A stretch of 16,111 nucleotides of DNA from Nanoarchaeota archaeon (GTDB taxonomy: Archaea > EX4484-52 > LFW-46), in NCBI GenBank assembly GCA_018897155.1, contig JAHILE010000006.1:1-16111 (forward strand), written 5' to 3'. The position numbers and the translations under genes are program-made. Positions within the stretch are counted from its first letter, which is position 1; every line of letters starts with the position of its first letter. Positions 7,983 to 15,925 of this stretch are shown in pieces. The notes under the pieces were generated by a model that worked only from the letters and a program-made list of their open reading frames with translations, was not told the origin of the DNA and ran no database searches.

Positions 7983-10541
7983 TTAGTCGGTCGAGTTTGT
8001 TGTTACCGGAGCTTCTACCGGGAATGGATATGCTCCTGCTGACCACACGCCGCCCATTTGCTGTTGTATTGTTCCCTTGAATGTCTTTAAATCAGCTGTT
8101 GCGAGTTTCAAGGTTGCGATTCTTGTGTCGTCTGCAGTCCATCCTGCCACAACAATTGCTGTTTTTGCAGGATCAAATGCGCCGCCAATTGCCTGGATGA
8201 TTGCTTTGCCCTGCAGTTTTGCGCTCCACTCAGCCTTTGTCGGAGTCTTGCCTTGTTCAGCAAGTTCATTGACAAGTGCGTTTGCGTAAGGACCGCCAAC
8301 CAAAATAAGGTTTTTGGATGTCCTTTCAGCGGAGATTTCTGTGTCGAGCTTTGATATTCCGCTTCCAAGCGAAGGCAATACAACGTTTCCTGTTCCTGCT
8401 GCTGTTGTCGGAGCTGTTGCCGATGCAGCCAATAGGTATACGTTGGATGTCATCTGTGTGTCAGGGTAGTACAGAGTCACAATTGCGTGGTTGTCAGAGC
8501 TTGTGTCCAATTCAGCGTATGTTCCGTATAGGTCGAGGTATGCGGTGACCTTGTCGCTTGCTGATGAAGAGCTCTTATATGAGCCATTCATTGTCGGTGC
8601 GTTGTATGCGACATAGGAGTTACCTGATGTAATACCGTTGCCGTCCTTTACAGACACAACTACTGCATTTTGTGCAGAGTCTTTGTCTTTTTCCTCAACA
8701 ATGAGGATTGCCGGAGTGGTTACGTCTTTTATTGAGATGCCTGTAAGCACACTATTCGTAGCACTAGTTAAGGTGTATGTCACCGCCGTATTTGTTCCTG
8801 CAGTTATATTTTTCTGAAGACCAACAGTTTCATTTAGGTATGTGTAATCTCCTGTGGGCAATGTTATTACAGTATTGTTCGGAATAGTCAGACTCGACAG
8901 TGGTGCAGTTATTGCAAGCTCTTCGCCGTTAGCCAGCCTTATTGTTGGATAGACAACTGTTTTTGAGTCTGCATAGGTTACATTCACGCTTGTTGAACTA
9001 ACTGGTGTTACAACATAGTTTTTTCCGTCAACAGTTAAAGTAATTCCAGTTCCTATTGCTAATCCAGTTGAACTTTCCTGTGTTGTGTACGTGGCACCAG
9101 AAATCACATCTGTGAACTCTACATAACCCTTTGACGTGGTGTTGTATATTTTATTTACTTTCACCATGTGGGTGTATCTGGAGTCTCCAGGAGCAAGGAA
9201 TAATGTTTCCTTGTGGGTGTCATTTTTTACTGCTGTGGCGCCTTCTACAAGAAGGATTTTGTTGTTGTCTGTGTCATCCTGCAGAGCGAATGTGTTTTCT
9301 GAAGTTTCACTGCCCCTTACAAAGTACACTGTAGCGTCTTTGCCGTTAGCGTCCTTGAAGGTTACGTATCCTTTGTAGTCGCCGCTGTTTCTTAGTTTGA
9401 TTTGGTCGCGGTTATCTGCTTTTACAGCGGATGAAACGCCCGTGTAAGATATTTTTATAGTTCCTGTGAACGGATCGACAAATTCTTTTCCCGAGATGAT
9501 TTCATCACTGTCGCTGTCTTTTGCAGCTACTTTTATTTCAAGGCTGGTTAGTGCACTGATACCGCCAGTAACAGTCACCAATGTTCCATCGATTGCAGTT
9601 TCGCTGTCACCAGTTGTTACTGCCTGTCCAGTTTCAAGTGTTATTTTTTCACTACCTACTTGAAGAACTGCAAGTCCTTTGTTTCCGTTGTCCCATGAAG
9701 ATACGGTTTTTGCATATACGCTTACGCCGCCAATCTTTTTGGAAACACCTTCTTTCACGCTGTTGGTTACGCCGCCGATTTCTAATATTACTGCGTCGTT
9801 TGTGGTGTCAAATCCTCTTACAGTAATTGTATATTCTGTTGCTCCGACAGTTACTGTGGCCTGCTCTCCGTTTCCGACAGATACGTCGCTTGCGGATTTA
9901 TAAAGGACTAATGTGTCTCCATCTGTTTCAGAGCCGACTGTGAATGGCATTCCGAAAAGAGTTATGCTTTGGCCCTTTGATGCAGTTGCATTGAACGGAA
10001 CTGCTTTTGTGAAGTCTGCCTTTAATGTGTATATCGGACTGCTTGTAGATGTTGACAGCTTTATGTGCATTACAGGATCTGTTCCCGAGGCGGTCTGTCC
10101 AAATAACACATATGGATAGCTGCCCACCACTATTGACTGCGAGTAATCGTAGTTTGTTCCGTCTTCATTTGTGAATGTTGATTTTTTCAGAAGAACCGGA
10201 AGCTCATTTGCTGTTACTGTGTCTTTAGCCACGTTCATTTTGCTGTTAAGCAATAGTTGGTTGGTTGAGTCGAACAAAGCAACTCCGCCATCAACTACTG
10301 TGGTTGCTGCACCAGCGCCTGATGTAGCTGTTACGCCATGTCCGTATAGTGTTGCTCCGACGTTTATTGCACCAACAACGTCTGCCGTTGCTGCTGAAGC
10401 GCCTACAACGACTACTGTGTCACTCGGACCCATTTTCTGGAAGTCCGAAATGTCTGCTGCAAGAGCTCCGCCAAGAAGCGTTGCTCCTGTCATGACCGCA
10501 CCCATTAGGGTGGATCCTATTTGTTTTATTTTTAGTTGCAT
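7983..10541 (-). CDS. S-layer protein (Methanococcus-type)
   Basis: An 852-aa main cell-wall protein that would assemble into the paracrystalline surface lattice. It has a signal peptide (1-29, ending GGALAA), then the N-terminal family block with SDTVVVVGASAATADVVGA (about 40-58), a long Thr/Ser/Val-rich beta middle part, and a C-terminal domain from about 742 (LILVGGPYANALVNELAEQG … ALVVAG-like IVVAGWTADD) that pairs with the N-terminal block in S_layer_N/S_layer_C families of Methanococcales. There are no cysteines and several N-glycosylation sequons. No transmembrane anchor is seen, so it must be held by other proteins. ATG 10541 has AAAGGTG 6 nt upstream. A terminator, a long leader and paired upstream repeats mark it as strongly expressed and probably regulated. 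Confidence 0.92.
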   Translation of the reverse strand: MQLKIKQIGSTLMGAVMTGATLLGGALAADISDFQKMGPSDTVVVVGASAATADVVGAINVGATLYGHGVTATSGAGAATTVVDGGVALFDSTNQLLLNSKMNVAKDTVTANELPVLLKKSTFTNEDGTNYDYSQSIVVGSYPYVLFGQTASGTDPVMHIKLSTSTSSPIYTLKADFTKAVPFNATASKGQSITLFGMPFTVGSETDGDTLVLYKSASDVSVGNGEQATVTVGATEYTITVRGFDTTNDAVILEIGGVTNSVKEGVSKKIGGVSVYAKTVSSWDNGNKGLAVLQVGSEKITLETGQAVTTGDSETAIDGTLVTVTGGISALTSLEIKVAAKDSDSDEIISGKEFVDPFTGTIKISYTGVSSAVKADNRDQIKLRNSGDYKGYVTFKDANGKDATVYFVRGSETSENTFALQDDTDNNKILLVEGATAVKNDTHKETLFLAPGDSRYTHMVKVNKIYNTTSKGYVEFTDVISGATYTTQESSTGLAIGTGITLTVDGKNYVVTPVSSTSVNVTYADSKTVVYPTIRLANGEELAITAPLSSLTIPNNTVITLPTGDYTYLNETVGLQKNITAGTNTAVTYTLTSATNSVLTGISIKDVTTPAILIVEEKDKDSAQNAVVVSVKDGNGITSGNSYVAYNAPTMNGSYKSSSSASDKVTAYLDLYGTYAELDTSSDNHAIVTLYYPDTQMTSNVYLLAASATAPTTAAGTGNVVLPSLGSGISKLDTEISAERTSKNLILVGGPYANALVNELAEQGKTPTKAEWSAKLQGKAIIQAIGGAFDPAKTAIVVAGWTADDTRIATLKLATADLKTFKGTIQQQMGGVWSAGAYPFPVEAPVTTNSTD

Positions 10542-10811: not shown

Positions 10812-11009
10812 ATTGTTCCAAAGTCTTTTTTTTAACTTATTTTTGATAATGGAGTTAAATATTTTCTTTTTATTAAGCGGTTGAATTCAGACAATTTTGC
10901 TGCAAACTTCTTTCATTTTTAATACAGGGGTTTATAAAACTCTACTTTCTTAACAGTCTCATTTTGTAAGAAAAATTTGTTTATTAACTTTAAATACGAT
11001 ATTAAATAT

Positions 11010-12074
11010 ATGTCTGATAAAAAACAGAAACCAAAAAATAAAGACGTTCTTGTAATATGTATTGATCGAGATGATGATTTTGGCAGAAAAGCAGGCATAA
11101 AAGGGCCGATTGTTGGCAGGCAAGCAAATATAGACGCCGCAGTTGCGCTCGGAATAAAAGACCCTTCTGAATCAGATGTTAACGCGGTTTTTCAGGCGAT
11201 AAAGGTTTATGATGATTTAAAAAGCGAAAATAAGACTGAGATTGCAACCTTAATTGGCGACGAACATGTCGGGATTGATTCGGACCGTAAGATACTTGCA
11301 CAATTGGATGAGGTTTTGAAAATCTTTTCTTTCAAAGAAGCTGTTTTAATATCCGATGGCGCTGAAGATGAGCATGTTATACCAACGTTAAAATCAAAGC
11401 TCGATATAATATATACTCAAAGAGTCATTGTGAAACAGTCCGAACAGCTTGAAACTACATATTATATGATAAATGATTTCATAAAAGACACACTTTCAGA
11501 CCGTAAAACTGCGCATATTTTCTTTGGAGTTCCTGCGTTTGCTCTTTTATTATATTCTATATTTGGCGCTCCCGCATGGCGGTTGATTTTCGGCGTTATC
11601 GGGGCGTATTTATTCATAAAAGGGTTTTTCCTTGAAACCTACATATACACCGCAATAAATGAAGCGAAGGCGGCATCTTTGCAAGAAAAAAGGGCGTTTT
11701 TTCTTTATATTTCCGCAATTGCTGCAGGGATTGTTGCGATTTTTATGGGGTATTCACAGGCAACTCTTATGTATTCAATTCTTGATAAGGTGCTCGTTTT
11801 TGCCAAAGAATCCTCTTTTGCATGGTTCGTATCAATATCCTTAGCCCTTTTTGGGCGTTTGTTAAGAGTTGGAAAAGAGGCATTTCCTAGATACATTACA
11901 TACATAATCTTGGCTTTTTCAGGAGCTTGGATAGTATTCGAAGTCTCTCGTTTTGGCCTGGGATTAGCCACAGAATATGATGGGATCGTTACTGCGGCTA
12001 TGCTCTCCGGCTCTATGGTTGTGATTTCAACAGCAGTGGAGCATTATGTTTCGTTTAAGAAAAAGCGTAAGTAA
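11010..12074 (+). CDS. DUF373 family integral membrane protein
   Basis: A 354-aa member of the archaeal DUF373 family. The cytosolic N-terminal half (about 1-160) shows the family blocks VICIDRDDDFGRKAGIKGP, IGDEHVGIDSDRKI, VLISDGAEDEHVIPTL and VIVKQSEQLETTYY, a conserved Asp-rich alpha/beta domain. It is followed by about six transmembrane helices (near 171-187, 190-211, 229-249, 269-287, 296-315, 328-348) and a KKKRK end. The function of the family is not known to me. ATG 11010 is chosen over the TTG at 10977, since family members begin shortly before the CIDRDDD motif. A candidate TATA box (tttataaaac, 10931-10940) would give a leader of about 50 nt; a second AT box (tttaaata, 10989-10996) is too close to the ATG. 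It is divergent from the S-layer gene. Confidence 0.92.
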   Translation: MSDKKQKPKNKDVLVICIDRDDDFGRKAGIKGPIVGRQANIDAAVALGIKDPSESDVNAVFQAIKVYDDLKSENKTEIATLIGDEHVGIDSDRKILAQLDEVLKIFSFKEAVLISDGAEDEHVIPTLKSKLDIIYTQRVIVKQSEQLETTYYMINDFIKDTLSDRKTAHIFFGVPAFALLLYSIFGAPAWRLIFGVIGAYLFIKGFFLETYIYTAINEAKAASLQEKRAFFLYISAIAAGIVAIFMGYSQATLMYSILDKVLVFAKESSFAWFVSISLALFGRLLRVGKEAFPRYITYIILAFSGAWIVFEVSRFGLGLATEYDGIVTAAMLSGSMVVISTAVEHYVSFKKKRK

Positions 12075-12674
12075 GACACTACCTATTTTTGAATAATTAC
12101 GTAATAACTCAATCTGCGCATGTATTCATTATCATTATTTAGAGCCCTTAACTAATGTTCTTGGATGCTCTTGAATGTATTGACTATCCATTTCTTAATC
12201 AATAGACACTTTTCAGAGATATCTCTCACAAATAGCCGTGTTTTGAGTAGTATTTGCCGTCGTGATTAAACGTTTTCAAACCGTAACTAACATCTTCCGT
12301 AACTATGTAATAAAATACTTCAAAATCGGATTCTAAGAATTTATTATACTTTCTTTTTCACAAATAAGTTTTCATAAAAAACAAATGTCTATATTTTTTT
12401 GTCAATTATTTTAATCGATTAATCGATTAAAATTTATTTCGAATGTGTTTTTTATGCCTTCGATTGCTATCGATTAATTTCAATTAAGCCGATTAATCGA
12501 TTAAGCCCATCGATTAATCGATTATTTTTCGACTTAAGACAGTTTGAAATGTTTTTGACGCAAGACAAAAACACACAAGTTGCTCAAAAATATTCTGAAT
12601 GAGTTTAACTTTGAGTGGTTGATAAAAATCGTTTAGAAAACGTAACTAATTCTTTCAGATGGGGTCGTACGCCA
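12075..12674. other. 600-bp AT-rich gene-free region with repeats
   Basis: No credible gene was found on either strand between the DUF373 gene and the convergent coiled-coil HTH gene. It contains an attacgtaat palindrome near 12096-12105, two imperfect direct repeats (about 12243-12297 and 12611-12656, both starting ttgagt and sharing cgttt-(6)-cgtaactaa-(1-2)-tctt), and between them a dense palindrome cluster listed separately. The repeat-bounded block could be a control or maintenance site or a small non-coding mobile element. Confidence 0.5.
12408..12524. repeat. cluster of CGATTAATCG palindromes
   Basis: Three perfect copies of the 10-bp palindrome CGATTAATCG start at 12416, 12490 and 12511, the last two 21 bp (two helical turns) apart, with a partial copy at 12471. 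The first lies in a 26-bp perfect palindrome (12408-12433) and the last in ATCGATTAATCGAT (12509-12522). CGATTA occurs seven times on the plus strand within about 110 bp. It looks like a multi-site binding platform for a dimeric DNA-binding protein; origin, partition site and operator are the options. Confidence 0.7.
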
Positions 12675-13355
12675 TTATTTGCCGCTTAGGACTTTGATTC
12701 GGTATTCGGATTTTATAGAATATGCTTTTCGTCCACGACCCTTTATGTTTTCAAGAATGATCGCGGAATTTGCCTTTTTTATTGAATTAATATAGCCTTT
12801 TACCGTTATGGGAGAAATATTTACCTGGGTGGCAATTTCCTCGTATGTGAGCGGTATTTCAGAGTTCAATAGTGCGTTTAAAACAAGGCTTTCTTTTGAA
12901 GAAAGTTCGGTATTTTTACGGATTTCACTATTTATAAGCTCTTTTTTTGGATCCTCTTTTTCAATCGAAAACATCTGGCGTTTTATTTCATTTATTGCAT
13001 CATGATTTTGTATTGCTAGGCGCGAGATGCGCATAATTTCTTTCATTTTCTTATTTGTTTCAAGTATTTCGGCACCTATTGTCGAAAGCTGTGATTTCAA
13101 AAGCAGGATGTCCTGATTCAAGCCTTGATCTGTATTTGATGCTGCTGATTTTGAAATGGTTGTAATATTTCTTGAATTTATTTCAACATCTCTTAGAATT
13201 TCACCCATTGCATCGTATATTGTTTCTATGTTTTTATCGCCAACTCTCACTTTTTCGCTTAGATTCGCGATGCTTGCTTTCATTTCTGTGATATCCTGCT
13301 TTACGGAATCATTGTCTTGAGCATTTTTTCTTGAGAAAAAGTCCAAAAGGCCCAT
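12675..13355 (-). CDS. coiled-coil protein with C-terminal helix-turn-helix domain
   Basis: A 226-aa protein with three visible parts: a short MGLLDFFSRK N-terminus, a long helical, heptad-like region (about 15-135) rich in Ile/Leu/Lys/Glu that is probably a coiled coil, and a winged-helix/LuxR-like HTH (about 150-214) with TYEEIATQVNISPITVKGYI and a wing-like GRGRKAYSIK. Similar small HTH proteins are frequent in DPANN-type archaea; the targets are unknown. The MGL-x-DFF-x-RK start could lie against the membrane or another protein. A TATA box centred 27 bp before the ATG indicates a leaderless mRNA. The palindrome cluster lies 150-270 bp beyond its stop and is a candidate binding site, but nothing in the sequence proves the pairing. 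Confidence 0.75.
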   Translation of the reverse strand: MGLLDFFSRKNAQDNDSVKQDITEMKASIANLSEKVRVGDKNIETIYDAMGEILRDVEINSRNITTISKSAASNTDQGLNQDILLLKSQLSTIGAEILETNKKMKEIMRISRLAIQNHDAINEIKRQMFSIEKEDPKKELINSEIRKNTELSSKESLVLNALLNSEIPLTYEEIATQVNISPITVKGYINSIKKANSAIILENIKGRGRKAYSIKSEYRIKVLSGK

Positions 13356-13390: not shown

Positions 13391-14057
13391 TCTGTTGCGG
13401 CATTTAACGATTCTCTTATTTTCTATTTAATCATGTAAATTTTAGTCGTTGTGATTGCATTTATTCAAACGTGCCACATTCTTGTTGATTTTATGGCTAA
13501 AATAGCGGTTTTTGTTTCATTTTTTAGTTTTTCACCATATTTTGTTCGCATACCCCATATTTTTCGAAAAAAGACGGCAAAAATCGCAAAATTAATTCAA
13601 TTACGCTTAAAGCATGCTCTTTTTAGCCGGTTGTCAGCCATTCAACATCACAAACTCTCACAAATCTCACATTCTGCGCTGAATTTCTTTCAATTTTTTG
13701 TTTTCGCGCTCAAAATCCTATTTTTCAAAAACTCACAAATTTTTGTAAAACTTTCTAACTCTCACATTTGAGCGCAAGAGTTATAAAAAATATAGTTTCT
13801 AAAAAATATTTTATATCCTATATTTAGTAATACTTCTTTATTCGTATGTATTTTAAAAAATAGTGTTACAGATATATTTATTTGATTATTATATGATGAA
13901 TAATTTATTATTGATGATGCATTTACTTTTTTCCATCGTTTCGGCCCGAGGGGTATATTCTTTTAGAAAAACATGCCAAAAATCGAGAAAATCAAGAGAA
14001 TGAGGTCAAAATAGGCGTTTTTTGGCGCGGTGGCAGTCCGGATGAAATCACTAAGTC
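13391..14057. other. AT-rich gene-free region with a recurring TCTCACATT motif
   Basis: No convincing gene was found. The longest open frame (13451-13771, plus) has low-complexity Phe/Lys/Ile/Ser content and no ribosome binding site. The motif tctcacattntgcgc or a close variant occurs at 13665-13679 (exact), 13760-13775 (tctcacatttgagcgc) and 14056-14070 (exact), the last overlapping the end of the acetyltransferase gene. The stretch 13790-13930 is extremely AT-rich. No tRNA, SRP RNA or RNase P RNA signature was recognised. Confidence 0.45.
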
Positions 14058-14961: not shown

Positions 14962-15070
14962 AGAATGTGAGAGTTAATACTTCTTAAGAAATGCGTTATT
15001 TCGCGTTTTATGTCTTTATAAATCTGAATGTCCAACTAAAAGACAGTATATAGAGGAGTCTGCTTCTAAC

Positions 15071-15695: not shown

Positions 15696-15808
15696 CCTTT
15701 CGTTTCACTTAAGGCTTTTTATCCCAAAGAAGCTTGTGAATGGATAAAAATCATTTCGCTTACGCTCAAGGCTTTATGTCCCAAAACAATTGGCGAATGG
15801 ACATAAAT
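15696..15808 (-). repeat. tandem pair of covarying hairpin units beside 5S
   Basis: Two imperfect copies of a 56-57-bp unit (15696-15751 and 15752-15808) lie head to tail. Each holds a perfect 9-bp stem around a 17-nt loop: tttttatcc/ggataaaaa (15716-15750) and tttatgtcc/ggacataaa (15773-15807). The two stems differ at two base pairs and both are compensated (T-A to A-T, A-T to G-C), so structure is kept. The second hairpin touches the 3' end of 5S rRNA, so the pair may act in 5S processing or termination, or be a structured repeat family. Confidence 0.75.
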
Positions 15809-15925
15809 ACTGGCAGCGCCGCGACCTTCCCACCCTGGGGCAGTACAAGCCGCATCGTTGGAGGTCTTAACTTCCGAGTTCGGAATGGGATCGGGTGTTT
15901 CCCCCCCGCTATGACCGCCAGCACC
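15806..15925 (-). rRNA. rrf: 5S ribosomal RNA
   Basis: Read on the minus strand, the sequence shows the conserved 5S core: TGCTGGCGGTCATAGCG at the 5' end, CACCCGATCCCATTCCGAAC, CTCGGAAGTTAAGACCTCC, then GATGCGGCTTGTACTG and GGTGGGAAGGTCGCGGCGC. The ends pair (GCTGGC with GCCAGT, extended by G-U pairs), giving about 120 nt as in other 5S RNAs. Both ends are good to within a few bases. It stands apart: no 16S, 23S or tRNA is in the window. A TATA box sits at correct spacing upstream and a hairpin pair abuts the 3' end. Confidence 0.95.

Follow-up and report, generated by a model that had tools for sequence, protein, structure and literature searches.

A palindrome array and a neighbouring HTH protein gene form a candidate centromere-like module in archaea of p__EX4484-52

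A palindrome cluster between two convergent genes

The window, by which we mean the whole stretch of 16,111 nucleotides analysed here, is contig C6 of its own genome. Within it, a gap of exactly 600 bp separates the end of a DUF373 protein gene (12074, + strand) from the end of a gene for a helix-turn-helix (HTH) protein (12675, − strand). The original prediction had described this gap as gene-free, with both flanking genes pointing inwards, and this holds, since no ORF in it reaches 60 aa. The features on which the following analysis is based are:

10977 to 12074, + strand: DUF373 protein gene, the convergent neighbour, which in G001 and G005, too, adjoins the HTH gene
12075 to 12674, no strand: convergent intergenic region holding the array
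12402 to 12523, no strand: island conserved in the congener LFW-46, with 78% identity and all site spacings identical
12408 to 12433, no strand: site 1, a 26-bp perfect palindrome, ATTTTAATCGATT/AATCGATTAAAAT
12469 to 12478, + strand: partial site ATCGATTAAT, whose core GCTATCGATTA is kept in the congener
12488 to 12504, no strand: site 2, GCCGATTAATCGATTAA, with 74 bp, or 7.05 helical turns, from site 1 to its centre
12509 to 12524, no strand: site 3, ATCGATTAATCGATTA, 21 bp or 2.0 turns beyond site 2
12531 to 12541, + strand: GACTTAAGACA element, also with a copy in the congener
12557 to 12567, + strand: GACGCAAGACA, a second copy of the same type as GACTTAAGACA, likewise with a copy in the congener
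12675 to 13355, − strand: HTH protein gene (226 aa), the proposed binder of the array, with a hydrophobic N-terminus, a coiled coil and a C-terminal (w)HTH
13757 to 13769, − strand: AAATGTGAGAGTT, a sparse 13-mer common across the phylum and often near the module

The window also carries an S-layer type protein gene (852 aa, 7983-10541, − strand) and an isolated 5S rRNA gene (15808-15922, − strand).

The cluster itself is much as had been predicted. Three full CGATTAATCG palindromes lie at 12416, 12490 and 12511, the first of them at the centre of the 26-bp perfect palindrome; all seven of the claimed CGATTA units were located on the + strand (12416, 12424, 12471, 12490, 12498, 12511 and 12519); and the two sites said to lie 21 bp apart are sites 2 and 3. 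Only the predicted extent, 12408-12524, needs adjusting: the cluster is there, but the feature is slightly longer, given the limits of the conserved island and two copies of GAC(TT/GC)AAGACA beyond the cluster, at 12531 and 12557, both common to window and congener. Among 200 dinucleotide-shuffled versions of the window, none had four or more CGATTAATCG matches with at most one mismatch, and the 450 bp past the HTH stop codon have a repeated-8-mer score above all 300 shuffles and above every other window of the contig. The genome-wide count that had been proposed as a check revealed a strong local concentration, with three of the four CGATTAATCG copies of the whole 1.43-Mb genome in 12416-12520 and the other one on contig C40; within this genome the cluster is thus not scattered over unrelated loci. 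No Rfam family matched at the cluster, and no parS-like site of the ParABS type (TGTTTCACGTGAAACA) was found in the window.

The sole congener compared was MAG LFW-46 (G001, contig CABMCT010000053.1), assigned by its authors to p__EX4484-52, a DPANN sister lineage of Nanohaloarchaeota (PMC8561730). Here the cluster sits between the same two genes, so that absence from a relative with kept synteny, which would have spoken against the prediction, is not observed. At 78% identity over 12405-12523 the cluster is more similar than either flanking gene (65-70%), and both the 74- and the 21-bp spacings are the same. Outside the island, the 600-bp gap can hardly be aligned between the two genomes.

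Homologous genes keep arrays of their own

A profile of the HTH protein (A4) finds relatives in 27 of the 34 genomes of the phylum, covering all 12 genera, although several scores are weak and some homologue assignments rest on these; all genomes compared are draft assemblies. Profile matches outside the phylum include generic HTH proteins, and only three, from G336, G253 and G236, were kept on inspection. Arrays of differing, lineage-specific repeats lie just past the stop codon of the homologous gene in G336 and in five or more families of the phylum. The array repeat is CGATTAATCG in family f1. In f3 it is TTCGACA, with 14 copies in G003 and 11 in G014, mostly 11 bp apart and starting about 12 bp past the stop codon; in G009 the same array begins, and then the contig ends. 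Family f4 (G010) has five copies of TGTTATAACA in about 125 bp and none elsewhere on its 287-kb contig; f5 (G005) has five copies of ACATAACTA; and f7 (G023, G017, G027 and G033) has CGATACTATC and GGTTACT elements. TGTT(G/A)TAAC elements, related to TGTTATAACA, were found in G004, G015 and G024. Spacing close to whole helical turns recurs in several of these arrays.

In two further lineages the repeats are found within the ORF, separating the parts that encode the coiled coil and the HTH. These are TTTACTAAAC and GTTAAC repeats in genus g11 (G025 and G031) and GTCGACCA in G236, the latter with four copies and none elsewhere in 159 kb. At L166:7601-8593, at L165 and near 7450 of L213, such in-ORF repeats code for the segment that links coiled coil to HTH; the constraint on the DNA site and the protein linker therefore overlap. 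In G336, from another archaeal lineage, the protein shares the architecture of the family (starting MGLFDLFRKK..., then coiled coil and HTH), and the four copies of the TAGTCGACTA palindrome on its 188-kb contig all lie directly past the HTH gene. In G253 the architecture is present and a clear downstream array is absent. When the 450 bp downstream were scored for repeats at 14 loci, no shuffle of 300 (dinucleotide) reached the score in ten of them; in the remaining four (G024, G015, G236 and G253) the signal was weak or absent.

The genes around the module vary, namely, DUF373 in f1 and f5, serS/tyrS in f3, serS in f7 and xerA in f4. Orc-A, considered as a constant neighbour, was rejected as such, having been seen in that position in f1 only. 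No NTPase gene adjoins the HTH gene in the window, G001, G003, G014 or G005, and an ExeA-like AAA gene lies near it in G253/G236. In f4 (L163:11096-11950, L162, L164 and L229), the gene directly past the array region encodes a XerA-type tyrosine recombinase. At L170 (G033:C33) a second, truncated end of an HTH gene lies near the full copy, likely by local duplication.

Since arrays are kept beside homologous genes across families, gene and array stay linked while the neighbours and the repeat sequence change. We therefore hold with high confidence, from these sequence comparisons, that they form one self-linked module in which the array is the predicted binding site of the HTH protein. The suggestion that the adjacent HTH protein is the partner of the cluster thereby gains strong support.

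The 13-mer AAATGTGAGAGTT has a second match in the window near 14964 (+ strand, 12 of 13 bases), and it occurs in 26 of the 34 genomes of the phylum, at 0-8 copies per genome, the reversed control being almost always 0. Often it lies beside the HTH module; in f7 it adjoins Orc-A, within the coding region alongside, in f3 it adjoins DUF373 and in f4 it stands at the xerA end. An A-tract precedes many copies.

Architecture of the HTH protein

The HTH protein consists of a short hydrophobic start (MGLLDFFSRK), a helical hairpin or coiled coil and a C-terminal (w)HTH, for which Pfam matches are weak. An AlphaFold2 model built from two sequences (mean pLDDT 67) has helices at residues 3-71 and 77-132 and HTH helices at 153-204. 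A fold search with this model returned nothing significant, only generic helical hairpins (Rad50 coils, Vipp1), and a profile search against the PDB gave mostly matches to coiled coils and generic HTHs. At least two F or W in residues 2-9, a feature picked post hoc, occur in 15 of 15 family N-termini versus 9.7% of 516 controls; the hydrophobic segment is short, and its hydrophobic moments and amphipathicity are modest. No relatives were found in plasmid and viral collections.

Position relative to the replication origin

Four HTH-bearing contigs exceed 100 kb, and Orc-B is on every one of them, at a distance of 21 kb in G003, 93 kb in G010, 31 kb in G336 and 17 kb in G236. For random positions, the chance of four such shared contigs is about 7e-4, as the product of the contig/genome fractions (0.11, 0.26, 0.125 and 0.20), and a Fisher combination of the distances gives 0.003; proximity to the origin thus refers to these four genomes. 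Bacterial parS sites, for comparison, are mostly near the origin (PMC7333895). In the genome of the window, Orc-B is on contig C40 and Orc-A on contig C54. In LFW-46 an Orc1/Cdc6 gene (Orc-A) is 5 kb from the cluster, and by synteny C54 probably follows the window contig.

Nucleotide skew is clean in G010 only, that of G003 being uninformative, as is the simple cumulative skew of the window. On contig C11 of G010, transcription-corrected third-codon skews change sign where the Orc-B gene lies (108-110 kb), and their sign is the same on both sides of the array at 202 kb; no switch accompanies Orc-A, on contig C8. T-A skew is of one sign across the array of G336, and in G236 it is near Orc-B (134 kb), and not at the HTH gene (151 kb), that a weak G-C skew changes. 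One ORB-core pattern, from which the ORBs of this lineage may differ, had no match in the array, and its count in the window is at or below chance.

Some observations around the origin genes stand by themselves. The sharp corrected-skew switch at Orc-B (G010:C11, 108 kb, L150) is, for that archaeon, a good replication-origin candidate. A second coiled-coil protein, without an HTH, is encoded within about 4 kb of Orc-B at L028 (G031), G032:C129 and G009:C14:4294-4710; in G031, its gene adjoins genes that by eye are those for DNA polymerase D subunits. The end of the Orc-A contig (L034:1-497, G000:C54) holds what by eye is a transposase-like fragment, perhaps the cause of the assembly break that follows the window.

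Comparison with known systems

RocS of Streptococcus pneumoniae is one protein with a (w)HTH, a coiled coil and a short membrane-binding helix, and links chromosome and membrane (PMC11500499). It resembles the HTH protein as a single protein with (w)HTH and coiled coil, the membrane segment of the latter being predicted. However, it is bacterial, and its HTH is N-terminal and its helix C-terminal, i.e. the opposite domain order. In the text consulted (PMC11500499) no array of its own is described beside the RocS gene; the same paper presents pSK1 Par as a single-gene plasmid partition protein, likewise with an HTH and a coiled coil. The HTH protein, with its C-terminal HTH, matched neither Pfam nor NCBIfam models of the RocS/pSK1 Par family (DUF536), and because of this and of the reversed domain order we do not count it as a member. 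pSK1 Par binds repeats next to its own gene, upstream of that gene; its HTH is N-terminal and it belongs to a plasmid, whereas here the HTH is C-terminal and the repeats are downstream or in the ORF. By analogy, our best reading is that the module would work like RocS or pSK1 Par, outside their family.

In SopB-sopC of the F plasmid and ParB-parS of P1, the centromere repeats lie directly past the gene of the centromere-binding protein, a layout like the one seen here. Both systems need a ParA-type ATPase in the operon together with a ParB-type protein, whereas no gene of either type adjoins the HTH gene of the window, and the HTH protein itself has no ParB match that would place it in ParABS. 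SegAB is an archaeal segregation system of Sulfolobales whose palindromic sites cluster by its own gene and an origin (PMC12284271). The module, as proposed, would share these points, but SegB belongs to the ribbon-helix-helix proteins and has a ParA-like partner, and its sites are also scattered genome-wide. The window encodes an HTH protein flanked by DUF373 and other genes, with no SegA next to it, and we do not assign it to SegAB.

With regard to the membrane, Noc acts through an N-terminal amphipathic helix; it differs from the HTH protein in being a ParB-family protein with sites scattered over the chromosome. Noc of Bacillus subtilis brings DNA to the membrane (PMC4331003), and TubY is another protein with a membrane-binding segment (PMC7762940). 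It is plausible, judging from its residues, that the N-terminal segment of the HTH protein binds the membrane as in RocS, Noc or TubY.

Proposed function and alternatives

We propose that the cluster is the cognate array of the neighbouring HTH protein, which would probably bind as a dimer or oligomer on palindromic sites spaced by whole helical turns. A nucleoprotein complex could then be assembled through the coiled coil, and the short hydrophobic N-terminus may touch the membrane. Because gene and array stay together near a replication origin, this complex would most likely act as a centromere or anchor formed by one protein, keeping the origin region in place or sorting it. Repeats beside the gene of a presumed binder, near an origin, characterize the centromere-like class, and this arrangement, with sites recognized by sequence, is what we find. 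On the combined basis of origin proximity, the multiplicity and phasing of the sites, their non-promoter position, the coiled coil, the N-terminus and the analogies above, we assign a probability of roughly 0.5 to an origin-proximal centromere-like site, served by a single, possibly membrane-tethered protein with a role in segregation or anchoring.

In the main rival reading the array serves gene regulation and not segregation, the HTH protein binding it for autoregulation, as a roadblock, or for control of the convergent neighbour. Such a role would suit an HTH that is ordinary and transcription-factor-like, and sites that lie inside or just past the HTH gene itself. Yet in the lineages examined these sites lie past the 3' end of the gene or within its ORF rather than at its promoter, their phased copies number up to 14, and the array persists beside neighbours as different as DUF373, serS/tyrS and xerA; we regard regulation alone as unlikely, at perhaps half the weight of the centromere-like reading.

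That the array is a replication origin or an initiator binding site is distinctly improbable, despite its A+T-rich repeats, the closeness of Orc-A in LFW-46 and the Orc-A contig that probably abuts the window contig. The skew in G010, which switches at Orc-B and neither at the array nor at Orc-A, together with the lack of a switch at the array of G336, led us to reject it, and the array holds no ORB-like sequence by the one core pattern used. Hence, of the three roles originally offered for the cluster, namely partition site, binding platform for a chromosomal protein and origin, the last is disfavoured by skew, and partition or anchoring near the origin fits best.

A remnant of a selfish or mobile element, e.g. 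a partition cassette captured from a plasmid and now functionless, could account for the differing gene neighbourhoods and for the likeness to single-gene plasmid par systems. It is, however, very improbable for a module that is kept across the phylum, whose cluster is better conserved than its coding flanks in LFW-46 and which lacks relatives in the plasmid and viral collections. A replication fork barrier or terminus site akin to Tus-Ter would likewise have the gene of its binding protein beside the sites, and xerA adjoins in f4, but the array, at 17-93 kb from Orc-B, lies near the origin side and no skew switch coincides with it, which leaves this option highly improbable. Equally poor is the case for an RNA hairpin or bidirectional terminator, as palindromes between convergent genes would suggest, when the f3 and f5 arrays are mainly direct repeats, no Rfam family is matched, and conservation covers the sequence and spacing of the sites but not the DNA between them.

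Implications for chromosome sorting in DPANN archaea

Beyond the single locus, the centromere-like reading could extend to an archaeal centromere system not described before, in which a membrane-tethered coiled-coil wHTH protein would act on a fast-evolving centromere, 3' of its gene or in the ORF, for anchoring and segregation of the origin throughout p__EX4484-52 and in other archaea. We put this broader proposal forward tentatively, at somewhat less than even odds. From one centromere system to another, the repeats are typically not conserved (PMC7762940). In the module, as in plasmid centromeres, presumed binder and DNA site stay linked while the site sequence changes by family, only that here this occurs on what look like chromosomes, not plasmids. 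We know of no description of chromosome sorting in DPANN archaea, nor did we find one in the literature; for these organisms, the module supplies a candidate segregation protein, together with its sites, in several lineages.
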